Source of the DNA: a virus
Virus record (IMG/VR): IMGVR_UViG_3300012001_000019
Coordinates: 1-42,544 of that record
Length of the DNA: 42,544 nucleotides
Reading direction: 5' to 3' (one strand)
In this document: piece by piece, positions 5,755 through 34,387 of the stretch
How positions within the stretch are numbered: position 1 is the stretch's first letter
Layout: each line of letters begins with the position of its first letter
Translations under genes and position numbers: made by a program
The notes under the pieces: generated by a model
The model's database searches: none
Told to the model about the DNA's origin: nothing
Seen by the model: the letters and a program-made list of their open reading frames with translations, nothing else

Positions 5755-5861
5755 TAGTAAACTGATACCGATATAGGTAAAGATCATACTCAGGAGTATA
5801 AGGCTAATCTCTACCTTGTCAATGAGCAAATAGGTTGTAATATCAAGCTAAACGATACCAC

Positions 5862-5891
5862 TTGACAATACATACGTATCTACTATACAAT
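5862..5891 (+). promoter_or_regulatory. Near-leaderless promoter of the early operon
   Basis: TTGACA (5862-5867), 18-base spacer and TACAAT (5886-5891; TATACA at 5884 is an alternative with a 16-base spacer) end seven bases before the ATG at 5899. The gene has no Shine-Dalgarno sequence. Confidence 0.6.
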
Positions 5892-6929: not shown

Positions 6930-7189
6930 GTAGAAAGATATTAAACGCTTCAGAGATGGGTAGAAAAGGCGGGAATAGAATGAAAGAGCTTAAGGCCGGC
7001 ACTAGTTACTATGCAGATATCAATGTAAAGGGTAGAGAGACTATCCTTAAACGTGATCCGGACTTCTATAAGAATCTAGCCAAACAAGGCTACCACGCCC
7101 GTCAGGTCAAGCTACAGGAGATGATAGCTAAACAGATTGGTGATAGATCCGGGATAAATGCATTAGCAAAACTCCTTAAAGGGGAGTAA
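6926..7189 (+). CDS. Small basic protein with KGG-type N-terminus
   Basis: This 87-residue protein begins MSRKILNASEMGRKGG, resembling KGG-containing small basic proteins. The rest is Lys/Arg-rich and helical (ending NALAKLLKGE). Nucleic-acid binding is possible but unproven. It is the last gene of the overlapping early chain; a new promoter begins just after its stop. Confidence 0.55.
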   Translation: MSRKILNASEMGRKGGNRMKELKAGTSYYADINVKGRETILKRDPDFYKNLAKQGYHARQVKLQEMIAKQIGDRSGINALAKLLKGE

Positions 7190-7198
7190 TTTTACTAC

Positions 7199-7228
7199 TT
7201 GACAATACAGACGCTTCTATTGTATATT
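7199..7228 (+). promoter_or_regulatory. Promoter upstream of the 7339 gene
   Basis: TTGACA (7199-7204), 18-base spacer and TATATT (7223-7228) predict a start near 7235 and a leader of about 100 bases. Confidence 0.65.
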
Positions 7229-7244
7229 AACTACAGAACATTAA

Positions 7245-7313
7245 CAGCCTAACTAATTAAACGAATCCGGGAGTACTAAGTACCCTAGATAACGACACTA
7301 TTTAGTTAGGCTG
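7245..7313 (+). promoter_or_regulatory. 12-bp leader hairpin before a strong ribosome site
   Basis: CAGCCTAACTAA (7245-7256) pairs perfectly with 7302-7313. The loop holds a second hairpin (GTAC/GTAC plus GG/CC around 7270-7284). AAAGGAGGTGA and the ATG at 7339 follow. It lies at the expected mRNA 5' end and may protect or present it. Confidence 0.6.
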
Positions 7314-7338
7314 AATGTCTTAAAGGAGGTGAATAAAT

Positions 7339-8124
7339 ATGACAGGATATCAAACTGCAAAAGCAGTAGCAGACAAATTAAAACCGGCTGAAGTCGATGA
7401 GACTATGCCTATAGAGACAGCTAAAGAAGAACTGACACAACTAGCCGTTATTAAGAATGATGAGGCTCTAGCTAAGTTATATAACGATAATGCTTCGATA
7501 GGAGCTGATAATCTAGCCGGAGAATTACCGGTACTCAAAGTTCATTCAGTTGGTAAGAGTATGAAGAATACCTTAGCTGATGGATCAGAACCTAGCGATG
7601 GATACTTCTTTTATAAGCCAACAGGTGAACAGTATAAAGAGTTAGAAGTTCACGTACTTACTATTAGTCGAGGCTTTAAAGCTGAAGGGATGGCCGATCC
7701 ACAGGGTAATACTAAGCTGATTTTCAATCAGATCTTAGGAGGAGTCATCATAGATGCAGGACAGACCAAGCCATTTTTAATGTACTTTACCGGAAGTAAA
7801 CTTTCATCTCTTTGGGAGTTTGGCAAGGAAGCCGGGAAATATACGAAGGCTAAACCCTTTGGCATACCTATGTTTGCTTTAACAGTACGCTTAAGTACTG
7901 AGAAGAAAGAGAATAACTTTGGTAGATCGTGGGTAGTTAATTTCGAGATAGTTAAGGCAGAAGACGGACAAGCTAAGCTAGTCTTAGATCCGGAAGAATT
8001 TAAGTTCTTAAAAGAGAGTGCTATTAGTCTTCAAGATACGATTAATAACTTAATCGACACCAAGACTAATAAAGGAACTGATGAAGAGGTAATACCTTTA
8101 GAGTCAGACATGCCCTTTAAGTAG
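7339..8124 (+). CDS. Putative ssDNA-binding or replication-associated protein
   Basis: This 261-residue protein starts with a perfect SD sequence (AAAGGAGGTGA). The core is globular (LKVHSVGKSMKNTLADG, GYFFYKPTGEQY, FLMYFTGSKLSSLWEFGKEAGKYTKAKP). The C-terminus is acidic and ends LESDMPFK, similar to the acidic DDxPF tail of single-stranded DNA-binding proteins. The leader hairpin and strong SD suggest high expression, as expected for an SSB. The family was not firmly identified, so the function is inferred. Confidence 0.5.
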   Translation: MTGYQTAKAVADKLKPAEVDETMPIETAKEELTQLAVIKNDEALAKLYNDNASIGADNLAGELPVLKVHSVGKSMKNTLADGSEPSDGYFFYKPTGEQYKELEVHVLTISRGFKAEGMADPQGNTKLIFNQILGGVIIDAGQTKPFLMYFTGSKLSSLWEFGKEAGKYTKAKPFGIPMFALTVRLSTEKKENNFGRSWVVNFEIVKAEDGQAKLVLDPEEFKFLKESAISLQDTINNLIDTKTNKGTDEEVIPLESDMPFK

Positions 8125-9033: not shown

Positions 9034-9273
9034 ATGGACGAATTACAGAAAGAGTTACACGATTTGAGAAAAGACATTGATGCAGTTATTCAAAGAGCTG
9101 GATCGTACAAAGTTGGTTACAATGAAGAGCAACGACTCTTAGGACAAGTGAAGATTCAAAGAGAGATCGCTCTGGTTTATACCAAGCTCCAAGAAGCAAA
9201 GATGTGGGCCGGTAAATGTCTTGAGATGACTGGAAGTGAGTTGCCAGCACAGTACCAAGATAAAGCAGAATAG
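9034..9273 (+). CDS. Acb2/Tad1-like helical-hairpin protein, candidate cyclic-nucleotide sponge
   Basis: This 79-residue, fully helical protein has a perfect SD sequence. Its C-terminal half (REIALVYTKLQEAKMWAGK, LEMTGSELPAQY) resembles the hairpin shared by Acb2 and Tad1, phage proteins that bind the cyclic-nucleotide messengers of CBASS and Thoeris immunity. The typical features are an Arg-led helix, a KLQEA.MW stretch, then G..LP. This is a remembered family resemblance, not a search result. Position in a region of tiny accessory genes agrees with counter-defence. Confidence 0.5.
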   Translation: MDELQKELHDLRKDIDAVIQRAGSYKVGYNEEQRLLGQVKIQREIALVYTKLQEAKMWAGKCLEMTGSELPAQYQDKAE

Positions 9274-9289
9274 TTTTTGCCTCAAGGCT

Positions 9290-9535
9290 ATGGCTTTGAG
9301 AGAGAAACTAGGGTCGCACAACAATCAGTATGTGAATAAGAAGATTGCTAAGGCTCATGCTGAAGGAGTACGGGAAGGTTTAAATATGATTGATCCACTT
9401 GATTTAGTAATCTCTTGTGTACCAGATTGTACGCCAGAACAACATGGTTATCATCAAGGAACGTGGGATGCTCATATTAAATTAATGGAGATTCTTAGAA
9501 AGCTCAAGGAAGATAGTAAGGAGAGTAAAGAATGA
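9290..9535 (+). CDS. Small helical protein, unknown function
   Basis: From ATG 9290 it is 81 residues (MALREKLGSHNNQYVNKKIAKAHAEGVREGL...). An in-frame GTG at 9236 would add 18 residues and overlap the previous gene. Neither start has a good SD, and ATG 9290 lies in the loop of a hairpin (CTCAAGGC/GCTTTGAG, 9281-9300). The AEGVREG segment recurs as AEGIREG in the next gene, hinting at related helices. Confidence 0.5.
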   Translation: MALREKLGSHNNQYVNKKIAKAHAEGVREGLNMIDPLDLVISCVPDCTPEQHGYHQGTWDAHIKLMEILRKLKEDSKESKE

Positions 9536-10636: not shown

Positions 10637-10762
10637 ATGGCAGCTAAAAAGAAAACCGGCAAAAAATTAGATAAAGAGGACATCATGGACATGAAGAAAG
10701 GTACATACTCTAAGAAGGAGGAAATGGCCGAGAAGTTTAAAGGTAAAGCAAAAAAGAAATAG
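10637..10762 (+). CDS. 41-residue Lys-rich protein
   Basis: A perfect AAGGAGGTGA lies ahead of ATG 10637. The product is about 40 percent Lys, rich at both ends (MAAKKKTGKKLDKED..., KFKGKAKKK). It could bind nucleic acid or neutralise DNA charge. The ribosome site is as good as any in the genome, so expression is likely. Confidence 0.6.
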   Translation: MAAKKKTGKKLDKEDIMDMKKGTYSKKEEMAEKFKGKAKKK

Positions 10763-10769
10763 CTTTTTG

Positions 10770-10800
10770 TAAGCCGGGTATCGGGAATATGCCCGGCTTA
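10770..10800 (+). promoter_or_regulatory. 9-bp GC-rich hairpin before a strong ribosome site
   Basis: TAAGCCGGG (10770-10778) pairs with CCCGGCTTA (10792-10800). No T run follows; instead AAAGGAGGTGA and ATG 10831 come about 15 bases later. It is read as a leader hairpin. Confidence 0.55.
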
Positions 10801-10830
10801 GAGGAAAACTATAAAGGAGGTGAGACAAAT

Positions 10831-12353: not shown

Positions 12354-12368
12354 CCTCAATATTGCCTA

Positions 12369-12398
12369 TTGACAATACAAGCGTATGTACTGTATATT
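12369..12398 (+). promoter_or_regulatory. Promoter of the 12431 gene
   Basis: TTGACA (12369-12374), 18-base spacer and TATATT (12393-12398) predict a start near 12405. It shares TTGACAATACA with the 7199 and 5862 promoters. Confidence 0.65.
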
Positions 12399-12430: not shown

Positions 12431-12850
12431 ATGAGTGCATTTTTAGTAGAAGATAAAACAATCAATCGAGTAGTTACCTATTTAAAGGCTACTAGATTCA
12501 GAGGGGATCATAGTTACACATTAAGTCAATTAGAAGAGTTGGGCTTTAATGTTGAAGATTCAAACTTCGAGCAGAAATTGGGTGAAGCTATGTTTATCTT
12601 AAATATAGGTGGAGTGTCCGAGCGATATGGCAATGCTCAAGGGTTCAGACCTTTAGACTATAAGTATTCTTATGAAATGAATACTAAAAAGATCCAAGTC
12701 CTAAAGAGTTTAAGATGCTTCCTTTATCAATGTAATGAAGGGGAGAATGACAAATTAGATCTATTTAAAGTTCTAACAAGTCTTTCACATGGTTTAGCAT
12801 ATCAAATAGTTTCAGATATGCCGGAGTACGATAACGCAATCTGGGGATAG
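12431..12850 (+). CDS. Conserved-looking protein of unknown function
   Basis: This 139-residue protein starts at ATG 12431, placed by AAAGGAGGTGA. MSAFLVEDKTINRVVTYL, FILNIGGVSERYG, LKSLRCFLYQCNEGE and IVSDMPEYDNAIWG form a pattern I recognise from plasmid and phage hypothetical proteins found in many bacteria. It is mixed helical. Its own strong promoter and SD suggest substantial expression. Confidence 0.6.
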   Translation: MSAFLVEDKTINRVVTYLKATRFRGDHSYTLSQLEELGFNVEDSNFEQKLGEAMFILNIGGVSERYGNAQGFRPLDYKYSYEMNTKKIQVLKSLRCFLYQCNEGENDKLDLFKVLTSLSHGLAYQIVSDMPEYDNAIWG

Positions 12851-12903
12851 GCCTTTGACTATGCTTACTAAGAGGGTAAAAGTAAGCGTAGATGAGAGAC
12901 TTA
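12851..12903 (+). repeat. Intergenic hairpin family, copy 1
   Basis: GCCTTTG is followed by a 10-bp stem (12859-12868 with 12882-12891, one G-U) and then a GAGAGACTTA tail. The flanks match copies 2 and 3, but the stem sequence (CTATGCTTAC) is entirely different. A 20-codon frame crosses it, probably by chance. Confidence 0.65.
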
Positions 12904-12929
12904 AAAGAATAGGAAGGAGGTGAATAATT

Positions 12930-13130
12930 ATGAAGATAGAATACTACAAAAAACAAATATACGGATTAGATAAGTTTTATATTAAAGATACAAGGACAGC
13001 AGTTCTTATAACATCTTTAACCGGAACTATTACTGTAAGTACAATGGATCTGGCTATCTTAAAAGCGTTAGGCCATGAAGTAATAGAAGTATCCCAGGAA
13101 GAGACAGAATTACCGGAACTAACTATTTAA
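12930..13130 (+). CDS. 66-residue protein, unknown function
   Basis: AAGGAGGTGAATAATT precedes ATG 12930. It is small, beta-leading (YYKKQIYGLDKFYIKDTRTAVLITSLTGTIT) with an acidic C-terminus (SQEETELPELTI). It is flanked on both sides by members of the hairpin repeat family. Confidence 0.55.
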   Translation: MKIEYYKKQIYGLDKFYIKDTRTAVLITSLTGTITVSTMDLAILKALGHEVIEVSQEETELPELTI

Positions 13131-13184
13131 GCCTTTGTTAGTGTTGTTTACCAAAAGGCGTAAGCAACACTATAGAGAGACTTA
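13131..13184 (+). repeat. Intergenic hairpin family, copy 2
   Basis: GCCTTTGT is followed by a 13-bp stem (13139-13151 with 13160-13172, one G-U), an 8-base loop and then TAGAGAGACTTA, running into AAAAGGAGGTGA. Confidence 0.7.
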
Positions 13185-13201
13185 AAAGGAGGTGAATATA
13201 T

Positions 13202-13396
13202 ATGAAAACAAATAACAAATGGTATCCAGTAGAAAAGCACGGAAATTACTATAAATTAATTGACGGATTCTTAATGGCTGTACCTATGCTTAGAGGTGGA
13301 GGTATGGACATGGACGGTAATGAACCAAACATATTAGAAGTTACTGAGTTTGAAGATACAGACGACGTAATTGAGATGTTAAAGAATAATGAGTAA
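13202..13396 (+). CDS. 64-residue acidic protein, unknown function
   Basis: AAAAGGAGGTGAATAT precedes ATG 13202. MKTNNKWYPVEKHGNYYKLIDGFLMAVPM, then a Gly/Met-rich turn and an acidic end (EVTEFEDTDDVIEML). No motif is recognised. It lies between hairpin copies 2 and 3. Confidence 0.55.
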   Translation: MKTNNKWYPVEKHGNYYKLIDGFLMAVPMLRGGGMDMDGNEPNILEVTEFEDTDDVIEMLKNNE

Positions 13397-13399
13397 TAA

Positions 13400-13454
13400 G
13401 CCTTTGTTAGTGTTGGTTATTGCTATATAATAATCAACACTATAGAGAGACTTA
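13400..13454 (+). repeat. Intergenic hairpin family, copy 3
   Basis: GCCTTTGT is followed by a 14-bp stem (13408-13421 with 13429-13442, one G-U), a 7-base loop and then TAGAGAGACTTA. It lies before the packaging genes, next to a weak promoter-like TTGCAA at 13456. Confidence 0.7.
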
Positions 13455-13519: not shown

Positions 13520-14194
13520 ATGGATACTAAGCCCCCTGTTAAATTCGATCTATCCTTTACGCCTCTTATAGAATCCTATATAGAAGAGTGTAAAGCTTCC
13601 AAGACTAAGATAACTGTTAAGGGATTTGCTAAGAAAATTGGTTGTGATGTTTATGATTTATGGGCTTGGGCTGATAAGAAGAAGAAAGATGATAAGGGAA
13701 ATGTTACAGATGATTTATCCCGGCCTAAGTTTCATGAAGGATTGACTAAGTTAGATAAGTTAGAGAAAGAAGATACTCCGGAATCGTTTACTACTAAGCA
13801 AGAGTTATTCTGTCTGTTATATGTTACAGATGCAGCTATTTGTGGTAATGCTACTCAATGTTATATTAAGGCTTATGGGTTAGATCAGAGTAATGAGAAG
13901 GACTATCATAATGCTAGAGTTAGTTCTTCCAATTTATTAGCGAATCTTAGCATTAAGGTTCGCATGAACGAGATATTACAGGCTCAAGGGTTTAATAATG
14001 AGTTCATAGATAGTCAATTACTCTACTTAGTTAAGCAAAACGAGGATTTATCTACTAAAAGAGGGGCTATCAATGACTATAACAAACTACAGCAACGTAT
14101 TATAGATAAGATCGACCACACTACCAAAGGAGATAAGATAGTACCGATACTAGGAGGGTCAGCAAGTGCTATATCAAGCGACAACAGCAACTAG
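13520..14194 (+). CDS. terS: Terminase small subunit
   Basis: This 224-residue protein has an N-terminal part resembling a helical DNA-recognition domain (ITVKGFAKKIGCDVYDLWAWADKK). The centre has FTTKQELFCLLYV, GNATQCYIKAY and ARVSSSNLLAN...VRMNEIL, the Terminase_2-type signature (LT.KQ..F...Y, GNATQAY..AY). It recognises phage DNA and presents it to the large subunit. The start at 13520 is chosen from the shared upstream motif. The gene overlaps the large subunit by 29 bases. Confidence 0.85.
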   Translation: MDTKPPVKFDLSFTPLIESYIEECKASKTKITVKGFAKKIGCDVYDLWAWADKKKKDDKGNVTDDLSRPKFHEGLTKLDKLEKEDTPESFTTKQELFCLLYVTDAAICGNATQCYIKAYGLDQSNEKDYHNARVSSSNLLANLSIKVRMNEILQAQGFNNEFIDSQLLYLVKQNEDLSTKRGAINDYNKLQQRIIDKIDHTTKGDKIVPILGGSASAISSDNSN

Positions 14195-21062: not shown

Positions 21063-21071
21063 GTGTATAGT

Positions 21072-21992
21072 ATGACCACGATTAAAGGTAAAGTATCTAT
21101 TATTATCCCTGCTAAAAATGAGATCTTTCTTAATCAAACTATTAAAGGTATTTTAGATAATGCTAGAGGAGATATAGAGATCATCGTCAATCTAGACGGT
21201 TACTGGCCTACAGAATTTACCGTTACATCAGGAGAGATTAAAGGAACTACCTATCATCAAGAGATGATTAATGATCCAAGAGTCAACTACATTCATAGAG
21301 GACAGGGTAGAGGCATGCGATCAGGAATAAACGCTACAGCTTCAATAGCAACCGGAGAATACTTACTTAAGTCAGACGCTCATTGTATGTATGATGAAGG
21401 CTTTGATCTTAAACTTAAGGCAGATATGCAGCCTAACTGGATAGTTATACCTAGACGAAAGCGATTAGATGCAGAGAATTGGGCTATCTTAGATGTCGGT
21501 AAGCCAGATGTTGATTACGAATTTCTATCTAGTCCTAGTCATGACGGAGCTAAAGGCCAAGTCTGGAACGAACGAATCAAAGAACGCCTTAATAAACCGG
21601 AGTATGATATAGATGAAGACCTATCTTTTCAAGGATCATGCTGGTTTATGACTAAAGATTACTTCTGGAATCAATTAGAAGGTATGCAGATAGAAGGATA
21701 TGGTGAATTTGTCAGAGAGGCTCAAGAGCTAGGCCTTAAGTGCTGGTTAAGTGGCGGGCAAGTAATGGTTAATAAAAAGACATGGTATGCACATCTTCAT
21801 AAAGGTAAGATTACTGGTCGAATGTACTTTATAGATAAGTTTGGTATGATGGATGGAGAGAAATATTGTGATGACTACTGGTTTAATAACAGGTATCCTA
21901 AAGCAATCCACGATCTAGCTTGGCTTATTGAGAAGTTCAGTCCTGTACCAGGATGGACACCAGAATTAATAGAAAGTATACGAAGCAAATGA
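21072..21992 (+). CDS. Family 2-like glycosyltransferase
   Basis: This 306-residue protein has a GT-A fold start, VSIIIPAKNEIFLNQTI, then EIIVNLDGYWP and a metal-binding type motif in LLKSDAHCMYDEGFD. The later FQGSCWFMTKDYFW and YGEFVREAQELGLKCWLSGG act as the acceptor-side region. It transfers a sugar from a nucleotide donor. A near-identical layout appears in the first half of the 25641 gene. ATG 21072 is preferred to GTG 21063. Confidence 0.8.
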   Translation: MTTIKGKVSIIIPAKNEIFLNQTIKGILDNARGDIEIIVNLDGYWPTEFTVTSGEIKGTTYHQEMINDPRVNYIHRGQGRGMRSGINATASIATGEYLLKSDAHCMYDEGFDLKLKADMQPNWIVIPRRKRLDAENWAILDVGKPDVDYEFLSSPSHDGAKGQVWNERIKERLNKPEYDIDEDLSFQGSCWFMTKDYFWNQLEGMQIEGYGEFVREAQELGLKCWLSGGQVMVNKKTWYAHLHKGKITGRMYFIDKFGMMDGEKYCDDYWFNNRYPKAIHDLAWLIEKFSPVPGWTPELIESIRSK

Positions 21993-22138
21993 GCGACAAA
22001 CATCAAAAGATAACTGTTAAGACCTTACAAGCGTTTCTTAATATCTTTAATACTCAATCTATTAGTAAAGAGACAGTTGATATGATAGAAATGCACCCTA
22101 ACAATGGTACATGGAATATAGTTATTCATTATAAATGA
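21989..22138 (+). CDS. 49-residue protein, unknown function
   Basis: It starts in an ATGA overlap with the glycosyltransferase and ends in an ATGA overlap with the next one (MSDKHQKITVKTLQAFLNIFN..., NNGTWNIVIHYK). The double overlap supports translation. No motif is recognised. Confidence 0.5.
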   Translation: MSDKHQKITVKTLQAFLNIFNTQSISKETVDMIEMHPNNGTWNIVIHYK

Positions 22139-23013
22139 AAGTTTACTTAGAGTTACCGGTAGAAGATAGAGCTTTACAAAGAGTACGAGATGCGTTAGTT
22201 ATGTATAAGCCGGAAGGTTTAGAGATTACTGATAGTCCTAGTGATTCAGATCTAGTTATTCTCCATATAACCGGTAGGCATGATGGTATAAAAGCACAAA
22301 TAGATCTTCTTAATAAGTACAATAAACCCTATGCTATGATTCAGTACGTTTTGCGAAGTACTAAGAATCCTAGTACTTCCGATTGGTTAGATATGTGGCA
22401 AAATGCGAGGCTAGTATGGAGTTATTACTATCTACCCGAACTATGCTTTGAGGATAAAGTACATGAGCAATTTCCTTTCTACTATGCCCCATTAGGAGTT
22501 GATACAAGCGTTTTCTATGATAGAAAGAGTAGTAAGGGTCATAAAGCAGCCGTTATAGCGACAAATAGTAGAGGATTACTTACTGAGTCAGCGAAAGAGT
22601 GTATACAGGCTGGTACATCACTAGATAGAAAAGTATTCTTTCTAGGTGAAGAGGTAAATATCCCCGGAGTCTTTTGTAAAACAAACATAACTGATGATGA
22701 GTTAGCCTATTACTATTCTATTAGTGAATTTGTCTCCGGCTTAAGACGCATAGAAGGCTTTGAACTACCGGCAGCAGAAGGGTTAATGTGTGGAGCAAGG
22801 CCGATTATGTTCAATAAGCCCCATTATAGAGCCTGGTTTGAAAATATGGCTGTCTATATAGAGGAAGGCAATAGAGAGCAAGTACAAACAAGCCTAGAGA
22901 AAGTATTTAAAAAGGGTTCTCGGGAAGTAACAGAGGCAGAACTACAAAGAGCTAAACAGATCTTTAACTGGGAGACTATCATCAAAGGTTTTTGGGATAG
23001 ACTTTTAATATAA
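22135..23013 (+). CDS. GT-B-type glycosyltransferase
   Basis: This 292-residue protein has an N-terminal half with LVILHITGRHDGI, MIQYVLRST and APLGVDTSVFY, the last typical of GT4-like linkers. The C-terminal half has KVFFLGEEV, VSGLRRIEGFELPAAEGLMCGARPIM, carrying the E-x7-E nucleotide-sugar-binding pattern, and ends FNWETIIKGFWDRLL. It is shorter than typical GT4 enzymes (about 350-400). Presumably it extends a glycan begun by its neighbours. Confidence 0.8.
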   Translation: MKVYLELPVEDRALQRVRDALVMYKPEGLEITDSPSDSDLVILHITGRHDGIKAQIDLLNKYNKPYAMIQYVLRSTKNPSTSDWLDMWQNARLVWSYYYLPELCFEDKVHEQFPFYYAPLGVDTSVFYDRKSSKGHKAAVIATNSRGLLTESAKECIQAGTSLDRKVFFLGEEVNIPGVFCKTNITDDELAYYYSISEFVSGLRRIEGFELPAAEGLMCGARPIMFNKPHYRAWFENMAVYIEEGNREQVQTSLEKVFKKGSREVTEAELQRAKQIFNWETIIKGFWDRLLI

Positions 23014-23027
23014 TCATCTGCTATAAC
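22998..23027 (+). promoter_or_regulatory. Weak leaderless-geometry promoter
   Basis: TAGACT, N18, TATAAC (23022-23027) and N6 lead to ATG 23034. The -10 is good and the -35 poor. The spacing equals the stronger sites. Confidence 0.35.
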
Positions 23028-23033
23028 ATACTT

Positions 23034-23726
23034 ATGAACCCAACACTAGAATATTTACAGAAGTCATTTAGAGTCAACTTAAAAGATCAGTTAGTTGAAA
23101 TCCCTAATACAGATAGAGAGTTTCTAGCTAGTATCTTCAAAGACTTAGGCTTTACTAAAGGAGTAGAGATAGGAGTAGAAAGAGGTTTGTATTCAGAAGT
23201 ACTCTGTAGAAATAATCCCGGAGTCCACTTATTTAGTGTCGATGCCTGGACTGCGTATAAAGAATATAGAGATCATGTAACTCAAACTAAACTAGATGGT
23301 ATCTATGAGGAAGCAAAAGCAAGACTTAAACCATATAATGCAGAACTGATTAAAGGATTCTCTATGGATGTTGTAAAGTCTTTCCCTGATAACTACTTTG
23401 ATTTCGTCTACATTGACGGCAATCATGAGTATCAGCACGTTGTGGATGATATCACTCAATGGACTAAGAAGGTACGCCCTGGGGGGATTGTAGCGGGTCA
23501 CGACTATGTAAGACGAAAGACTACACACCAGAAGCAAGAGTACTTAATGCATGTAATCCCGGCTATTCATGGTTACATGGATGCATACCAAGTTAAACCA
23601 CTCTTTATACTAGGTAGTAAAGCTAAAATAGAAGGTGAAAGACGCGATAGCCCTCGATCATGGTTCTTTGTTAAGCCGGAAGATAGACGAGTAGTACCCG
23701 GATACGAAACTAATCTTGACAAATAA
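23034..23726 (+). CDS. SAM-dependent methyltransferase (Methyltransf_24-like)
   Basis: This 230-residue protein has motif I KGVEIGVERGLYSEVL (about 42-57), then LFSVDAWTAYKEY and FDFVYIDGNHEYQHVVDDI, followed by VRPGGIVAGHDYV. The pattern matches the class I family whose members often methylate sugars or act with glycosyltransferases. Its place within a glycosyltransferase cluster supports methylation of a sugar. There is no SD sequence. Confidence 0.8.
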   Translation: MNPTLEYLQKSFRVNLKDQLVEIPNTDREFLASIFKDLGFTKGVEIGVERGLYSEVLCRNNPGVHLFSVDAWTAYKEYRDHVTQTKLDGIYEEAKARLKPYNAELIKGFSMDVVKSFPDNYFDFVYIDGNHEYQHVVDDITQWTKKVRPGGIVAGHDYVRRKTTHQKQEYLMHVIPAIHGYMDAYQVKPLFILGSKAKIEGERRDSPRSWFFVKPEDRRVVPGYETNLDK

Positions 23727-23745
23727 TAGTTAGCATGTGTATGAT
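23716..23745 (+). promoter_or_regulatory. Leaderless-geometry promoter of RHH gene
   Basis: TTGACA (23716-23721), N18, TATGAT (23740-23745) and N6 lead to ATG 23752. The fit decides for ATG 23752 over GTG 23737, which would lie inside the promoter. Confidence 0.65.
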
Positions 23746-23751
23746 ATACAC

Positions 23752-23937
23752 ATGTCTTCAGATCTAGTACGCAAGAACTTCTATATAACCCGAACTGATA
23801 ATGTCTTCTTAAGTAACTTCGATGATCGTACTGCTTCAGAGCATATACGAATAGCTATTAATGAATACGTCACTAAGAAGCGTAAAGAGTTAGGTAAATC
23901 TTCATATTCTCCATCAAGAAAGGTAGCACATGCCTAG
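23752..23937 (+). CDS. Ribbon-helix-helix-like DNA-binding protein
   Basis: In this 61-residue protein, RKNFYITRTDNVFLSNF is a beta strand plus first helix and ASEHIRIAINEYVTKKRKEL the second helix, as in CopG/Arc-type regulators. The tail is basic. It may regulate the island or its own promoter. It overlaps the Tad2-like gene by 8 bases. Confidence 0.65.
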   Translation: MSSDLVRKNFYITRTDNVFLSNFDDRTASEHIRIAINEYVTKKRKELGKSSYSPSRKVAHA

Positions 23938-24154
23938 TCCTATTCCTGAGAAACTAAGTCAAGCTGGTATGTCTTTTGATGAAGCCTTAAGCTTTGTCTT
24001 AGAAGGTAGAAAGATTACTAGGCTTTCCTGGCAAGATCCGGAGACCTACGGCCTACTTAATGGTGAGACCTTAAGTATCATGATTCAAGGTAAACTCAAT
24101 AATTGGATAGTTGTTGTAGGAGACATAGAAGCTAATGATTGGGTTATCGTATGA
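23930..24154 (+). CDS. DUF2829 protein, Tad2-like anti-Thoeris candidate
   Basis: In this 74-residue protein, MSFDEALSFVLEGRKITRLSW matches the opening of DUF2829 proteins (MtFgeAL..lk.GkkV.R.gW). The end, IEANDWVIV, matches the closing .a.DW...  pattern. Tad2, the best known member, sequesters the gcADPR signal of Thoeris immunity. It overlaps both neighbours (RHH upstream, dehydrogenase by ATGA). It is shorter than typical members, so ligand binding is not assured. Confidence 0.65.
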   Translation: MPSPIPEKLSQAGMSFDEALSFVLEGRKITRLSWQDPETYGLLNGETLSIMIQGKLNNWIVVVGDIEANDWVIV

Positions 24155-25023
24155 CTAAAGTAGCAATTATCGGTAATGGGTGGGTGGGTAAAGCGATGCA
24201 GTCACTTTTTCCCGATGCTATAGTTTATTTAAGGGATGAAGAAAAAGTATATCTTCATAATCTTAATCCGGACAATACTAATCTTTATACTTCATTGAAG
24301 GATGCAGTAAATACATGTGAATTTGCCTTTATTTGTGTTCCTACTCCTAATTACATAAGTGAAAATACTCCTGTTCTGAGAGGTGATTATCCTAGTCTTA
24401 AAGGAGAAGGTAAATTAGATACTTCAGCAGTTGAAGAGTGTATCAAGTGGTGTGAATGTCCTATTATCGTTATTCGATCTACTGTTAATCCTGGAGACTG
24501 TGATAGGTGGAGTAGTAAATATGAGAAAGAGATAGTATTTCAACCTGAATACTTAGGGGAGTCTCCTCAACACCCATTACTAGATGTAACTCAAACTAAC
24601 TTCATGATACTTGGTGGCTGGACACATGCTACTAGGAAGCTCATAGATCTTTATGCCACTGTTTATAATGCGAATACTAAGATAAGGCAAGTTTCAGCTA
24701 GGACAGCAGAGATCATTAAACTAACTGAGAATAGAGCTATAGCCTTTAAAGTAGCTCAATGTCAAGAACTCTATGATGTATTAGAAGCAGATCATAGAAA
24801 AGAAGATTATTATGAAATAGTCCAAGCAGTCTATGGTGACGATCCTAGATTTAACTTATGGTGGACTCTTGTATATCCTGATAAAAGAGGGTTTAATAGT
24901 AAGTGTATACCAAAAGATGTCTATGCTTGGTGTGCTTGGGCTGAATCATTAGAATATGAGCCTAAAATAACAAGAGCCTTATTAGAAAAGAATAAGGATT
25001 GGATAGAAGGTGATAACAAATGA
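24151..25023 (+). CDS. Nucleotide-sugar dehydrogenase, short UDP-glucose dehydrogenase-like
   Basis: This 290-residue protein starts at ATG 24151 (ATGA overlap). Rossmann GNGWVG (8-13), FICVPTPNY, IVIRSTVNPGD and FQPEYLGESPQHPLLD follow the UDP-glucose/GDP-mannose dehydrogenase order. GFNSKCIPKDVYAW holds the catalytic Cys (Cys252). Known enzymes oxidise the sugar C6 to a uronate. Full-length members run about 390-430 residues; this one ends after the central domain and lacks the C-terminal UDP-binding domain. It may supply or modify a sugar for the glycosyltransferases. Confidence 0.75.
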   Translation: MTKVAIIGNGWVGKAMQSLFPDAIVYLRDEEKVYLHNLNPDNTNLYTSLKDAVNTCEFAFICVPTPNYISENTPVLRGDYPSLKGEGKLDTSAVEECIKWCECPIIVIRSTVNPGDCDRWSSKYEKEIVFQPEYLGESPQHPLLDVTQTNFMILGGWTHATRKLIDLYATVYNANTKIRQVSARTAEIIKLTENRAIAFKVAQCQELYDVLEADHRKEDYYEIVQAVYGDDPRFNLWWTLVYPDKRGFNSKCIPKDVYAWCAWAESLEYEPKITRALLEKNKDWIEGDNK

Positions 25024-25196
25024 CAAGTGTATTAATTGAGTTTTTATTAGGGATCTATTTTATAGGTGTGTCTATTGCCGTTGCAAGACAACTAACTACG
25101 CCGGTGACGTATAGTAAATCAGTAGATGTATTTAAACTAGTCTTAGGAGTATTACTAGTTCTTCTAGCAGTACTACAAGGAGTAAGGTTTATCTAA
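25020..25196 (+). CDS. 58-residue two-helix membrane protein
   Basis: It starts in an ATGA overlap and ends in a TAATG overlap with the HNH-AP2 gene. Hydrophobic helices lie near LIEFLLGIYFIGVSIAVA and VFKLVLGVLLVLLAVLQGV. Function unknown. Confidence 0.5.
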   Translation: MTSVLIEFLLGIYFIGVSIAVARQLTTPVTYSKSVDVFKLVLGVLLVLLAVLQGVRFI

Positions 25197-25651
25197 TGAC
25201 TATTAAGCTTACTCAAGGATATGAAGCTATCGTTGATGATGAAGATTATAAATATCTTAGTCAATGGAAATGGCATTATAATGCAGGGTACGCAATTAGA
25301 GGAATCTATGTAGGAACTGGTAGGAAAAATAGGAAAATGGTTAAAGTTCTTATGCATAGAGTTATTAATAAAACTCCTAACGGATATGACACAGATCATA
25401 TCAATAGAAATAAATTAGATAATCGTAAGCTTAACCTAAGGTCAGTCGTTAGGAGTTTTAACATTATTAATTCAAAGTTAAGGAAAGATAATACATATGG
25501 AGTAAGGGGAGTATTTTGGAATAAAAGCAATAATAATTGGCGTTCAGCAATATCTATAAATAATAAGAAGATAAGTTTGGGATCATTTAAGACAATAGAA
25601 GAAGCAATAGAGGCCAGAAAGAAAGCAGAGGTTATTTATCATGCAATATGA
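25196..25651 (+). CDS. HNH-AP2 homing endonuclease
   Basis: This 151-residue protein opens with LTQGYEAIVDDEDYKYLSQWKWHY, the usual start of this family. It continues with LMHRVI, YDTDHINRNKLDNRKLNLRSV (HNH core) and a C-terminal AP2-like domain (TYGVRGVFWNKSNNNWRSAI, then SLGSFKTIEEAIEARKKAE). Such genes copy themselves into allelic sites. It interrupts the dehydrogenase-to-glycosyltransferase run. Confidence 0.85.
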   Translation: MTIKLTQGYEAIVDDEDYKYLSQWKWHYNAGYAIRGIYVGTGRKNRKMVKVLMHRVINKTPNGYDTDHINRNKLDNRKLNLRSVVRSFNIINSKLRKDNTYGVRGVFWNKSNNNWRSAISINNKKISLGSFKTIEEAIEARKKAEVIYHAI

Positions 25652-27266
25652 TTTATCTATATTAATACCCGCAAGAAATGAAATGTTCCTATCTCGAACA
25701 GTAGAGGACATTCTTAAAAATAGACGTGGAAATACAGAAGTAATAGTTGGCTTAGATGGTCAATGGAGCAACCCCCCTATAGGTGATTTTGATGATGTCA
25801 CCATATTCTACTCTCCGGTATCACTAGGACAAAGAGAAATGACAAACCAACTGTGTAGACTTTCTAAGTCTAAGTATGTTATGAAGCTGGATAGTCATTG
25901 TGCTTTAGATGAAGGCTTTGATGTCAAGATGATGGACAAGATGAAAGATAACTATACTCTAGTTCCTCTAATGCGGAATCTCCATGCTTTTGACTGGGTA
26001 TGTCCGGAAGGCCATAGGAGATATCAAGGGCCTAGTGGTGTCTGTAAAGAGTGTGGTAAAGAGACAACAAAGGATATCTTATGGATAGGTAAGGATTCTC
26101 CTAAATCTACAGCCTTTCGTTTTGATAAGACGCTTCACTTTCAATACTGGAATGACTTTAAGAAGAGACCGGAAGGCCAAGGAGAACTTACAGATACACT
26201 AACTATACAGGGATCATGTTTTATGTTGACCAGGGATAAGTACTGGGAGTTAAATATTTGTGATCCGGAGTTTGGGAGTTGGGGTCAGCAAGGTGTAGAA
26301 GTAGCTCTAAAGACATGGTTAAGTGGTGGAAGAGTAGTTTGTAATCAAACAACGTGGTACGCTCACATGTTTAGAACACAAGGCGGAGACTTCGGCTTTC
26401 CTTACCCGATATCCGGTAGACAGACAGATCATGCTAGGGAGTTTTCACGTGAACTCTTTATTAAGGACAAATGGTCTCAAGCTATTATGACCTTTAATGA
26501 CGTATTACAAAAATTCTATCCTGTACCTGAATGGCATGATGATACTCCGGCAGTAGTAAAGCCTAAAAAAGAAGTTGTCTACTATACGCATGGAGTAGGG
26601 GATAACCAACTTCTAGAAGCTTGCAGAAGACAACTAGCTAAAGGTATGAAGACTAAACATATTGTGTCTATCTCTACTAATTCTCTAGATTTTGGTAAGA
26701 ATATTGTCTTCCCTCGTCTAGAAGTAGGTGGATTTTTAGATATGTTTCAACGAATCCTCTTAGGTTTAGAAGCTACAACTGCTGATATCATTTTCTTTTG
26801 CGAACATGATGTACTTTATCACCCAAGTCATTTCGACTTTATCCCTCCTAGTAAGGATATGTACTACTACAATACAAATGTATGGAGAGTTAGGGCAAGT
26901 GATGGACACTCTTTATATACTGATAACTTACAACAATTATCCGGACTTTGTGCCTATAGAGAGACACTTCTTACTCATTATAGAAAAAGACTCAAAATGA
27001 TCTATGAGAAGGGCTTTAGTAATGCACAAGGCTTTGAGCCCGGTACACATGGAAGAGAAGAACGAGTTGATGATCTTAAAGCAGAGAGTTACTTTTCAGC
27101 ATTTCCTAACCTAGATATTAGACATGAGACAAATGCTACTGCTTCACGCTGGACAAAAGAAGAGTTTAGGAATAAACGATATACTGAAGGCTGGACTGAA
27201 AAGAAAATTAGTGAGATACCCGGCTGGAATACTACAGATTTAGCCTCATTACTTGCCAACATATAG
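25641..27266 (+). CDS. Two-domain glycosyltransferase
   Basis: This 541-residue protein has a first domain (about 1-300) that is GT2-like: LSILIPARNEMFLSRTVEDI, EVIVGLDGQW, YVMKLDSHCALDEGFD, TIQGSCFMLTRDKYW. It contains a zinc-ribbon-like insert (WVCPEGHRRYQG...GVCKECGK). The second domain (about 315-541) looks like another GT-A-type unit: VVYYTHGVGDNQLLEACRRQL, IIFFCEHDVLYHPSHF, ending RWTKEEFRNKRYTEGW. It could add two different sugars in sequence. The start overlaps the HNH-AP2 gene by 11 bases. Confidence 0.8.
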   Translation: MQYDLSILIPARNEMFLSRTVEDILKNRRGNTEVIVGLDGQWSNPPIGDFDDVTIFYSPVSLGQREMTNQLCRLSKSKYVMKLDSHCALDEGFDVKMMDKMKDNYTLVPLMRNLHAFDWVCPEGHRRYQGPSGVCKECGKETTKDILWIGKDSPKSTAFRFDKTLHFQYWNDFKKRPEGQGELTDTLTIQGSCFMLTRDKYWELNICDPEFGSWGQQGVEVALKTWLSGGRVVCNQTTWYAHMFRTQGGDFGFPYPISGRQTDHAREFSRELFIKDKWSQAIMTFNDVLQKFYPVPEWHDDTPAVVKPKKEVVYYTHGVGDNQLLEACRRQLAKGMKTKHIVSISTNSLDFGKNIVFPRLEVGGFLDMFQRILLGLEATTADIIFFCEHDVLYHPSHFDFIPPSKDMYYYNTNVWRVRASDGHSLYTDNLQQLSGLCAYRETLLTHYRKRLKMIYEKGFSNAQGFEPGTHGREERVDDLKAESYFSAFPNLDIRHETNATASRWTKEEFRNKRYTEGWTEKKISEIPGWNTTDLASLLANI

Positions 27267-28485: not shown

Positions 28486-28602
28486 ATGGCAGCAGCAGTA
28501 ACCCTCTTAGGCTCAATCCTCAACACTACATCTGGAACTCTCTGGCTTTCCTGCATGAGTTCCAGATGTAGTGTTGAGGATTGGAGACAGGTGGTAATTT
28601 AA
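28486..28602 (+). CDS. 38-codon frame spanning a perfect inverted repeat
   Basis: [17 protein letters not shown]... has an N-terminus styled like the two neighbouring fibre genes ([20 protein letters not shown]), and an in-frame stop lies one base before the next ATG. The 3' two-thirds is the reverse complement of the middle. It may be the remnant of a fibre gene start disrupted by an inverted duplication. Translation is uncertain. Confidence 0.3.
28514..28583 (+). repeat. Perfect 26-bp inverted repeat between fibre genes
   Basis: Bases 28514-28539 (starting CAATCCTCAACAC) are the exact reverse complement of 28558-28583, separated by 18 bases. No T run follows, so it is not an intrinsic terminator. 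Confidence 0.85.
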
Positions 28603-28603
28603 T

Positions 28604-31600
28604 ATGGCAATATTACTAGATGCAAAAACAGATGGATTAGCTAGGTCTGGTGCAGGACCGTTTACTATCAGTCACACAGTTGGTACGGGAAATGATAGAG
28701 CTATTTTTGTCATTATAGATGGAAGACAGAGTAACAGAACCGCTACGGCTGTTACTTATAATGGAGTTGCTTTAACAAAAGCTAAAAATGTTAATGATGG
28801 TGTTCAAATGTACGGGGAGATATGGTATTTAATAAACCCTGCAAGTGGAGCCAATACTGTTTCTGTTACTAGTTCTGGAACAGGTGGATGGCATTTTTAT
28901 ATAGCAAGTTTTACAGGAGTTAGTCAAGCAACTATATTGGATCAAGTTGGTGGAAGTACAGGAACAACAGCAAGTATAAGTGATGCTGTTGTTCCAACAG
29001 TTGATGGAGAATTAATCCTTTCTGGTCTTGCCCATGAGCAAACTAACGTATCTACACCTGGTCAAACAAGTTTATTTGCTATAGATGATGGTACCTGGAA
29101 TAGTGGTGCTCAATATTTTATCCAAGGGACTCATGCTTCAAAAGCGATGACTTGGGCAGCTGCTGGTTCTGATACTTATGCTCATGTAGTAGCTTCTTTT
29201 TTCCCAGATACTCCACCTACTGTTGCCCTCAATACTCCTACAGATACCGCAACAGGAGTTTCAACTACTCCTGATTTAGTCTTTACAGGTACGGATGCAG
29301 ATGCAGATACGATTGAATACAACGTCAGCTTGTCAAATGGAGTAGATTTTTTTGGTCAGGTTTTGGCAGCAAATCAATATGTAGGTAATGCCGCCAATCC
29401 TGGACAGGCAATGTCATTCACACCTTCAGCTTCAATTACGCTTGGGAGTGCGTTATTTAATATTGCTAAAGCTAGTTCTCCCACTGGCAACATAGTATTG
29501 AAAGTATATACCCATTCAGGGACTTACGGGACATCTAGTATACCAACTGGAGCAGCCCTGGCTACATCAGATGCTGTCAGTAGTTCAGGATTATCTACCT
29601 CACCTTCTTGGGTGAATTTTATATTTTCTGGAGGAAATCAAATATCGCTTACTGCTGGGACTCATTATTGTCTTAGCCTTGAAATGTCATCTGAAACCTA
29701 CCCTAATGGCGTGAATTTATCTTGGGGTTCCGGTCACCCAGGCAATCAATCGATACTTGATAATACAGGTACCTGGACAGTGGGGAGTGGGCTCGATTTG
29801 GATTTTGGAGTTTTTGATAACACCATATCGTTTCCAGTAGTCCTCTCCAAACTCTCCGTTACTCCTGATGCTACCTTTACTGATGTAACTAACGGAGCAG
29901 ATACCCACCCTTTTGCTTCAGGCGACCAGATTAAATATACGGTTCAAATAGGCGATATTCTAGCTGGTTCAACTACTTATTATTGGAGAGTAGCAGGAAC
30001 AGACCCTACAGGATCTAATACCTACGGGGCGTGGTCAACAACCAGAAGTTTTACAACAGTAAGTGGCAGTTCTCCTTCAGCATCTATAAGTCCATCAGCT
30101 AGTATCTCAGCTTCAGTTAGTCCGTCAGCCTCCGTCAGTCCGTCTAGTTCAAATTCACCTTCAGTAAGTCCTTCAGCTAGTGTCAGTCCATCTAGTAGTA
30201 TTTCAGCCTCAGTCAGTCCTAGTGCTTCTGTCAGTCCATCTAGTTCAGTAAGTGCCTCTACTTCACCAAGTAGTAGTATAAGTGCTTCCATATCTCCTTC
30301 TTCTTCTGTTAGTCCTAGTTCATCTATTTCACCATCAAGTTCTATCTCTGCGTCAGTATCTCCATCAAGTTCTATATCCGCATCTGTTTCACCTTCTGCT
30401 TCTATCAGTCCTTCTGCTTCTGTTAGTTCGTCAATTTCACCATCAAGTAGTATATCTGCTTCAGTCTCACCATCTGCTTCTGTTAGTCCGTCTGCTTCTG
30501 TTAGTCCGTCATCATCTGTATCCGCATCAGTCTCACCTAGTAGTTCTATTTCAGCTTCTATCTCACCTTCTGCAAGTATCAGTCCTAGTGCTTCAGTATC
30601 TCCGAGTAGTTCTATAAGTGCATCAGTCTCACCTTCAGCATCAGTCTCACCTAGTAGTAGTATCTCTGCATCTACTTCACCGTCTAGTTCTATAAGTGCA
30701 TCAGTCTCACCTTCTAGTTCAATTAGTCCATCAGCTTCTGTTAGCCCGTCATCAAGTATTTCTGCCTCTGTTTCACCTTCAAGTAGTATTTCAGCTTCAG
30801 TCAGTCCGTCAGCTAGTAAAAGTCCTTCCGCATCAATCAGTCCTTCCAGTAGTATTTCAGCATCTGTATCACCTAGTAGTTCTATTTCAGCTAGTAAGTC
30901 TCCATCAGCATCAGTCTCACCTAGTAGTTCTATTTCGGCTAGTATCAGCCCATCTAGTAGTTCTTCAGCTAGTAAGTCTCCATCAGCTTCAATTAGTCCA
31001 TCTGCTTCTATCTCACCTAGTAGTAGTATTTCCGCTTCAGTCAGTCCTAGTAGTAGTATTTCGGCTTCAGTCTCACCTAGTAGTTCTATTTCACCTTCAA
31101 TTAGTCCTTCTGCATCTGTCTCACCATCTAGTTCAATTAGTCCATCAAGTAGTATATCTTCTTCAGTCTCACCTTCTGCATCTGTCTCACCATCTAGTTC
31201 AATTAGTCCATCAAATGCTATCTATACTCTTCAGACTGATCTATGGTCAATCCTTGCATCTAGTCCGAGTGCTTCGGTAAGTGCATCAGTCTCACCTTCA
31301 GCAAGTCAATCTCCTTCGGCTTCGGTCTCTCCAAGTAGTAGTATCTCAGCGTCTGTTAGTCCTTCTAGTTCAGTAAGTGCGTCCGTCTCTCCTTCTGCGT
31401 CAGTCAGCCCTAGTGCATCGGTAAGTCCATCAGCATCTATCTCAGCCTCAGTCTCACCATCGAGTAGTTCAAGTGCATCGGTAAGTCCATCAGCATCTAA
31501 GAGTCCATCTGCGTCAGTTTCACCTTCTAGTAGTATCTCAGCTTCTATCTCACCTTCGTCTTCAGTCTCAGCATCAGTATCACCATCTGCTTCAGTTAGT

Positions 31601-34387
31601 CCATCTGCGTCAGTTTCACCTTCTAGTAGTATCTCAGCTTCCGTATCACCAAGTAGTAGTTCCTCATCGTCTGTCAGTCCTAGTGCTTCTGTATCACCAT
31701 CTGCTTCAGTTAGTCCTAGTAGTAGCATAAGTGCGTCAATTTCACCTTCATCTAGTAGTTCGGCTTCGGTAAGTCCATCAGCCTCAGTCAGTCCTTCGGC
31801 TTCTACATCTCCTTCGAGTTCAGTAAGTGCCTCAGTCAGTCCTTCTAGTTCAATAAGTTCATCAGTCTCACCTTCAGCCTCAGTCAGTCCTTCTGCGTCA
31901 GTGTCACCAAGTAGTTCAATCTCAGCGTCTGTTAGTCCTTCTAGTTCAATCTCAGCTTCTGTCAGTCCGTCAGCCTCAGTCAGTCCTTCAGCTTCTGTCT
32001 CACCCTCTAGTTCTATCAGTGCAAGTATATCTCCTTCTAGTAGTATATCTGCATCTGTTTCACCTTCGGCTTCAGTAAGTCCATCTGCTTCAGTCTCACC
32101 TAGTAGTTCTATTTCCGCTTCAGTTAGTCCTAGTAGTAGTATTTCCGCTTCTATTAGTCCATCAGCGAGTATCAGTCCTAGTGCTTCTATCAGTCCATCG
32201 GCATCGGTATCATCTTCTGTTTCACCTAGTAGTTCTCTATCAGCTTCCGTCAGTCCTTCAGCTTCTACATCTCCTTCAAGTTCTATATCTGCTTCAGTCT
32301 CACCATCAAGCTCAGTAAGTGCATCTGTAAGTCCATCAGCTTCTGTCAGTCCATCGGCATCTATTTCACCCTCAAGTAGTATTTCAGCCTCAGTCAGTCC
32401 GTCAAGTAGTATTTCAGCCTCAGTCAGTCCATCGGCATCTATTTCACCCTCAAGTAGTATTTCAGCCTCAGTCAGTCCGTCTAGTTCAAATTCACCTTCA
32501 GTAAGTCCTTCAGCTTCTATTAGTCCATCTGCTTCAGTATCACCATCAGCGAGTATCAGTCCTAGTAGTTCTCTATCAGCTAGTCCAAGTCCAGCGGAGA
32601 GTACCTTCGGGCAAGTAACTAGAGATGACGTAGGACATACATTAGGAACTAATGCTTATGCAGCTAAATATAGTCTAGCAAGTCAAGGACTTGTAACTGC
32701 TTTATCTGTTTATATTATAAATTCTAGTGTTTCAAATCATTTAATACAGCTTGCAATTTATAATGATAATGCCGGATCAGTAGGTACAAAAGTATATTCT
32801 ACAGATTCTTTATTATTACTAGCTAGTAACGCAAGAGACGGGTGGCAGACATTTTACCCTAATAATTTAAATTTACTTATTGGTGATTATTGGTTAGCTA
32901 TAGAAGGAGATTCTAGTTCAATTACCTATCCTATTTTAACTGCTTCCACAGTACCGGTTTATAAGTGGACTGCTAGTTTAGGTACATGGGTTGATAATCC
33001 GACTACTACACTTGATTTAGGTTCTGGGGGAATATCTATCTATGCAACGTATACAATAGTTAGTTCTCCATCTGCTAGTATCAGTCCGAGTGCTAGTATT
33101 AGTCCAAGTAGTTCTGTCTCACCATCTAGTAGTAGCTCTGCTTCTGTATCTCCGTCTAGTAGTATTTCAGCCTCAGTCAGTCCGTCAGCGTCAGTTTCTC
33201 CAAGTAGTTCCTCATCAGCTTCTGTCAGTCCATCTGCTTCTATTTCACCTAGTAGTTCTATTTCGGCTTCAGTTAGTCCGAGTAGTAGTATTTCAGCCTC
33301 AGTCTCACCATCAGCCTCAGTCAGTCCATCTGCTTCTATTTCACCTAGTAGTTCTATTTCGGCTTCAGTTAGTCCGAGTAGTTCTGTCTCAGCAAGTATC
33401 AGTCCTTCAGCTTCGGTATCACCTTCATCTTCGGTTAGCCCTTCTAGTTCAGTAAGTGCCTCAGTTTCACCATCAAGTTCTCTATCAGCTTCTATTAGTC
33501 CTTCAGCTTCGGTATCACCTTCATCTTCTATCAGTCCTTCAGCTTCTCTATCGGCTTCTATTAGTCCAAGTAGTTCTGTCTCAGCAAGTATCAGTCCTTC
33601 AGCTTCTATTAGTCCATCTGCTTCAGTATCACCATCAAGCTCTGTAAGTTCATCAGTTTCACCATCAAGTTCGATTTCTTCTTCCGTATCTCCATCGGCA
33701 AGTAATTCACCATCATCATCTATTTCAGCCTCAGTTTCACCATCAAGTTCCGTAAGTCCATCTTCGTCTGCTTCTTCATCACAAAGTCCATCAGCTTCGG
33801 TCTCACCATCTAGTAGTATCTCCGCATCTGTTTCTCCTTCAAGTTCACAGTCACCAAGTAGTTCTATTTCTGCAAGTACTAGTCCATCTAGTTCAGTCTC
33901 ACCTTCTGCTTCAGTATCAGCCAGTATAAGTCCTTCTAGCAGTTCAAGTGCTAGTGTGTCACCATCAAGCTCTATCTCTGCGTCAGTGTCTCCTTCTAGT
34001 AGTAGTTCTTTATCGCAAAGTCCTAGCAGTTCGATCAGTAGTAGTACTAGTCCATCTAGTTCAGTCTCACCATCTTCATCTATTTCAGCCTCAGTTTCAC
34101 CATCAAGCTCTATAAGTCCATCTATTCCTAGCTACACGTTAGAGACAGATCAATTTACTGTACTTCTTCCTATTGTCTATCTGGAAAAATATGTAGTTGA
34201 AAGCACAGTTTATGAAGAAAAGTACACATTAGGAAATAACACGTATGTTAAAAAGTATGAAAAGGAAAACACGATGTTTGCTAATACCTATGAAGAAAAG
34301 GCTACTACCTTTGAAGGGAAATATAATGATTTTCCTACTACTTTTGTTAAACAGTACCCGGATATTAATGCTAATCGGAGTGGTTAG
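28604..34387 (+). CDS. Giant Ser-Pro-repeat fibre protein
   Basis: This is a 1,927-residue protein. Residues 1-200 are a beta-sandwich ([36 protein letters not shown]). Residues about 203-485 are an Fn3-like domain ([17 protein letters not shown] ... [18 protein letters not shown]) split by a jelly-roll-like insert ([21 protein letters not shown]...). About 488-867, 886-1329 and 1487-1840 are Ser-Pro arrays built from [12 protein letters not shown] and SASV units. About 1331-1487 is a second copy of the insert-type domain. The C-terminus (about 1845-1927) repeats EKY/EEKY. All six Ser codons are used, so the repeat is kept at protein level. Probably a long, flexible, glycan-bearing tail or head fibre. 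Confidence 0.75.

Follow-up and report, generated by a model that had tools for sequence, protein, structure and literature searches.

Three related hairpins lie within a run of small genes in a 42,544-base virus record from IMG/VR (the whole of which is referred to here as the window), and each begins at, or directly after, the stop codon of the gene preceding it. The family is real, is maintained at the RNA level, is small, and is confined to one phage, with its anchoring to stop codons being its most interesting feature. As the best explanation we propose, with a probability of roughly 0.45, that these are cis-acting hairpins at cistron 3' ends in a polycistronic phage mRNA, where they would serve as exonuclease barriers, as processing sites, or both.

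The three hairpins and their gene setting

The window encodes terminase, portal and major head genes, and the hairpins lie just upstream of the terminase small subunit gene, terS (Table 1). The original prediction of three intergenic copies holds, with GCCTTTG at 12851, 13131 and 13400, and with GAGAGACTTA closing the copies at 12903, 13184 and 13454. The fixed flanks common to the three copies amount to 17 bases; the flank pair matches three times, always on the + strand, and a reversed-pattern control gives no matches.

Folding with the stop codon included reveals that the flanks pair with each other, a feature missed at first reading. They form a fixed but imperfect basal helix, UA(A/G)G-C-CUUU-G / G-AGAG-A-CUUA, in which the segments UA(A/G)G/CUUA and CUUU/AGAG are paired, and C-A and G-G mismatches are present in all three copies. 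The UA(A/G)G/CUUA pairing extends the element beyond its first description, so that the positions stand but not the length; the true start coincides with the stop codon in copies 1 and 2 (12848 and 13128) and immediately follows it in copy 3 (13397). Of the eight basal pairs only one varies, from A-U to G-U, owing to the UAG stop of copy 1. Above them is a single pair, which copy 1 has as A-U and the other two copies as U-A, then a bulge and the upper stem. The stems had been given as 10, 13 and 14 bp; the second value is right, and the others become 11 and 15 when G-U pairs are counted.

Each copy has a total duplex of about 20–24 pairs, with mismatches and one bulge, spanning about two helical turns. 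The fold z-scores are -4.1, -5.9 and -5.4 for copies 1, 2 and 3, and the family model R1, which was built from these same sequences, scores them at 72.6, 80.4 and 79.2 bits. These are stable sense-strand stem-loops between co-directional genes, as an intercistronic mRNA hairpin should be, and the duplex has the length of an RNase III site (at least about 20 bp, irregularities allowed).

Table 1. Coordinates of the hairpins and neighboring features in the window.
Feature	Coordinates	Strand	Remarks
Promoter-like site TTGACA-18-TATATT	12369..12398	+	One of three repeated copies
Gene preceding copy 1	12431..12850	+	About 139 aa, phrog_35696-like, function unassigned; homologues in L136-L140
Copy 1	12848..12903	+	Basal helix includes stop TAG 12848-12850; 11-bp upper stem
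Small gene separating copies 1 and 2	12930..13130	+	66 aa
Copy 2	13128..13184	+	Basal helix includes stop TAA 13128-13130; 13-bp upper stem; abuts AAAGGAGG
Small gene separating copies 2 and 3	13202..13396	+	64 aa
Copy 3	13397..13454	+	Basal helix directly after stop TAA 13394-13396; 15-bp upper stem
terS, 3' of copy 3	13520..14194	+	Start judged from AAGGA site
Possible diverged fourth member	10759..10814	+	At stop TAG 10760-10762, before AAAGGAGG of next gene

The 66-aa gene has one homologue, in a locus (L081) without the hairpin flanks, and a homologue search with the 64-aa gene matched nothing beyond a near-identical record. The start of terS is 13508 in the open reading frame list, as opposed to the 13520 judged from its AAGGA site. 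The promoter-like site at 12369 probably drives the hairpin-bearing segment. The window has three copies (5851-5891, 7188-7228 and 12358-12398) of a promoter-like repeat of 41 nt (TTGACAATACA...), which shows dyad symmetry and is perhaps a promoter with an operator. The sole genome-contig match is a metagenome-assembled (MAG) contig labelled Sphingopyxis, but as this is possibly misbinned we have not adopted Sphingopyxis as the host. Elsewhere, in the structural region (21063-27266), there is a block of glycosyltransferase, methyltransferase and UDP-glucose/GDP-mannose dehydrogenase-like genes, together with an AP2/HNH-like gene that falls below the Pfam cut-off.

Covariation and strand preference

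When the three copies are aligned in register, 64 of 65 cells (98.5%) pair; nine of the 22 pairs have changed on both sides and ten never vary. Shuffled controls give 3.1 +/- 1.4 two-sided pairs and none of 500 reaches nine, although the shuffles ignore relatedness and independent events are few among three paralogues, two of them close. Sliding the partner strand out of register leaves only 0–2 two-sided changes. Nearly all of the sequence change sits in the upper stem. Copies 2 and 3 have an almost entirely common outer stem, with a single two-sided Watson-Crick change and one swap of U-G for G-U between them, and most of the covariation is therefore between copy 1 and the other two. It is also confined to these three paralogues, since no orthologous copies were found.

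G-U or U-G pairs account for seven of the counted cells and would be A-C mismatches on the opposite strand; one such cell reads U-G in one of copies 2 and 3 and G-U in the other. Folding energies on the + strand are -19.0, -22.3 and -21.4 kcal/mol for copies 1, 2 and 3, versus -12.5, -18.7 and -15.9 kcal/mol on the minus strand. The G-U pairs and the weaker minus-strand fold argue for selection on the sense RNA, and against a perfect DNA palindrome maintained by repair. The original suggestion that the RNA fold is selected is borne out by the two-sided changes, the sense-only G-U pairs, the stop-codon anchoring and the occurrence of a second, independent family built alike (see below), and maintenance of the fold at the RNA level is well supported.

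This preference for one strand, G-U pairs included, also makes it quite improbable that the hairpins are DNA-level sites such as terminase recognition repeats, integron-like attC sites or cruciforms near terS, a reading suggested by the presence of three copies inside 0.7 kb upstream of terS/terL and by the cassette-like order of gene, hairpin and gene. Integron attC sites in particular were rejected: the core sites GTTRRRY/RYYYAAC are absent, the ends being TA(A/G)G.../...CTTA, and there is no integrase among the window proteins tested.

A different view is that the copies spread recently, either by recombination or in the manner of a very small mobile palindrome, or that they mark module joints, with the fixed base as a trace of copying. 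The homology between copies 2 and 3 does end at the element boundaries, the intervening genes are near-orphans, and the gene content beside terS differs from that of a related locus, L056, which has a single gene without recognised similarity between its 11866-type gene and terS. However, pure copying does not explain an invariant base beneath a stem that has changed at most positions and still pairs, and the G-U pairs persist rather than having been converted to perfect palindromes. No mobility gene is present among the window proteins tested and no copies turned up elsewhere by pattern or covariance-model search, and we consider this origin unlikely.

Stop-codon anchoring and its interpretation

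The offset from the start of the helix to the stop codon is 0, 0 and 3 nt in copies 1, 2 and 3, with the stop codon providing the first three helix bases in copies 1 and 2, whereas the distance to the next Shine-Dalgarno sequence is about 9, 0 and about 47 nt, the last being to the presumed terS site. Because the offset to the stop is fixed and that to the Shine-Dalgarno varies, the anchor is the end of the upstream gene and not the start of the downstream one. Copies 1 and 2 were both thought to run into a ribosome site; this is so for copy 2, but copy 1 stops short of one. The Shine-Dalgarno is unpaired in whole-gap folds of copies 1 and 2.

We favor a role at cistron 3' ends, the hairpin anatomy being consistent with a 3'-end element that belongs to the upstream cistron. 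After departure of the terminating ribosome, the pairs of the duplex would close to form a barrier at the cistron junction, which would halt 3'-to-5' exonucleases entering the upstream gene, or be cut by an RNase III-like enzyme, or both. Each small gene could thereby be held at its own level, with the downstream Shine-Dalgarno remaining free. The fixed mismatched base would probably be read by a host or phage RNA-binding protein or nuclease, and the upper stem would need only to form a stable duplex. No dedicated RNA-binding protein or nuclease was identified among the window proteins tested, and the fixed base may reflect recent copying and not protein reading, given the unrelated hairpins in many other gaps. 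Intrinsic terminators were rejected, as no T-run follows the stems and a terminator search lists none of the three copies.

It is possible, but doubtful, that the hairpins are specifically RNase III processing sites, with cleavage of the irregular helix freeing a downstream mRNA whose new 5' end lies beside a strong polypurine Shine-Dalgarno. RNase III does not require conserved sequence at the base, which counts against this, and copy 3 has no adjacent ribosome site. The two helical turns with fixed internal mismatches would suit the enzyme, copy 2 abuts AAAGGAGG and copy 1 is near one, and there is a parallel in phage SP82, for which RNase III sites, and stabilisation through a ribosome site, are cited in PMC12502629 and PMC7509114.

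Alternatively, the hairpins could be regulatory sites for a phage or host RNA-binding protein, with the genes forming a regulon under translation or termination control. A free stem on a fixed, mismatched base is typical of protein sites such as the T4 gp43 operator hairpin (PMC3014915), but the Shine-Dalgarno is not sequestered, copy 3 is far from the next start, and there is no candidate protein, so that this too seems unlikely. Stimulation of stop-codon readthrough or T4 gene-60-like bypassing is extremely improbable and was rejected on sequence. The hairpins do begin at the stop, and GGA-UAG in copy 1 resembles the T4 take-off site (PMC3014915), but GGA is absent from copies 2 and 3, and in copy 1 the frame closes six codons past the stop and the candidate landing GGA meets a TGA two codons later.

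Throughout a block from 7.2 to 13.5 kb some strong hairpin is present in most gaps of at least 60 nt, so that intercistronic structure appears to be a habit of this block, and clear common sequence is found there only among the three copies. The segment at 10759-10814 scores 16.2 bits (E 0.097) against the family model, has a fold z-score of -4.5, and matches the 3' side of copy 2 as a 76% repeat, making it a weak candidate for a fourth member. A hairpin at 7245-7313, proposed earlier as a distant relative, has no family-model score at E ≤10, sits in a 5' leader after a promoter-like site, and was rejected as a member. The broader structure there (7240-7320; z -4.9) has a 12-bp closing stem and lies between the promoter-like repeat and the gene at 7339. 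At 9270-9310 (z -3.7) the stop TAG 9271-9273 pairs with AAACTA within the beginning of the following gene, perhaps by chance. A near-perfect 28-bp hairpin without a T-run at 28513-28584 (gap z -7.4) precedes a large repetitive gene, 28604-34387.

Relatives, a second family, and known systems

Further copies in relatives, whose absence had been named in advance as counting against the original interpretation, were found neither by pattern search nor with a covariance model, and the family is present only in the window phage and in a record (L017) that is 99.99% identical to it. The exact flank pattern occurs in 51 IMG/VR stretches, with the hairpins only in L017; the other matches lack them and look like chance. 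Relaxed flank patterns yielded no additional member, the covariance model found nothing at E ≤10 in 86 loci (1.04 Mb), phage and plasmid collections contained no match, and in Rfam 15 no family reached the gathering cut-off for the window element. The flanks are also absent from terminase relatives (47–65% identity). Literature on repeated intergenic phage hairpins offered little beyond the papers cited here, in which we did not find the window family described as a family. Separately, related phages carry hairpins with an identical loop, CTTGTGA, and differing stems (L092:9527-9557, L094:17043-17073 and L122:12304-12334).

A search of the relatives for hairpins with common flanks and differing stems returned the window and L137-L139, which were included as carriers of a homologue of the gene before copy 1. 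This second family, which is not similar in sequence to that of the window, has 14 copies (e.g. L139:2449-2530 and L139:3864-3945), with one or two each in L137, L138, L139, L140, L145, L147, L148 and L151. The homologue is known in only some of these contigs; the others resemble carriers. The basal helix of the element (UUGACUAG/CUGGUCAA, also given as TTGACTAG/CTGGTCAA) and the 4x4 internal loop above it are both nearly fixed; a 10-bp stem of variable sequence comes next, and then a second hairpin, whose loop is CGGCAA. Across the 14 copies 98.2% of cells are paired, and 11 pairs (55 cells, versus 19.9 cells in shuffles) have changed on both sides, all in the upper stem and second hairpin. 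Every copy begins no more than 9 nt from a plausible stop codon, the offset being -3 or +1 in 12 cases, with the upstream frame running to the contig edge for two copies. The genes downstream differ, and Rfam has no match in the five second-family loci tested.

These comparisons suggest that the plan of a fixed base and covarying stem recurs in uncultured phages. That there is a general phage class, in which a sequence-fixed basal helix including or abutting the stop is read by a dedicated factor and opened by each terminating ribosome beneath a freely drifting stem, with sequence-unrelated elements in at least two phage lineages, is a speculative extension that we hold to be unlikely. If true, the class would couple 3'-end formation or decay of each cistron to translation termination. 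The fixed base and covarying stem separate reading of sequence from reading of shape, and the repeated copies in one presumed transcript provide a ready experimental set.

Among known elements, the ESAS of the cluster K mycobacteriophages are also repeated inverted repeats with a variable spacer beside small phage genes (PMC3203893). Their 17-bp conserved arms lie upstream of the SAS 13-mer, GGGATAGGAGCCC, at start codons, and departures in the arms are uncompensated and do not support RNA pairing, whereas the window family compensates and is stop-anchored. The window hairpins are thus not ESAS, as their changes compensate and no SAS 13-mer lies beside the three copies. The intergenic CUUCGG hairpins of T4 (Tuerk 1988, as cited in PMC8948821) are likewise numerous phage elements with a common fixed part and variable stems, but as described there the division is the reverse: the loop is fixed in T4, whereas the window family keeps its base and varies in the loop and upper stem.

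The nearest phage precedent for processing, by analogy and as cited in PMC12502629 and PMC7509114, is the early mRNA of the Bacillus phage SP82, with its RNase III sites and polypurine stabiliser. Both involve polycistronic phage mRNA, stem-loops, and sequence rich in ribosome sites downstream; cleavage is proven in SP82, whereas it would be a prediction for the window family, whose likeness is one of plan. The E-hairpin of the Escherichia coli gal operon blocks 3'-to-5' exonucleases at a cistron junction, as demonstrated by compensatory mutation (PMC9239205), and similarly follows an upstream gene and depends on its pairing. It is, however, a single copy with an 8-bp G+C-rich stem about 130 nt past the stop, whereas the window hairpins are repeated, lie directly at the stop, and share a fixed basal helix.
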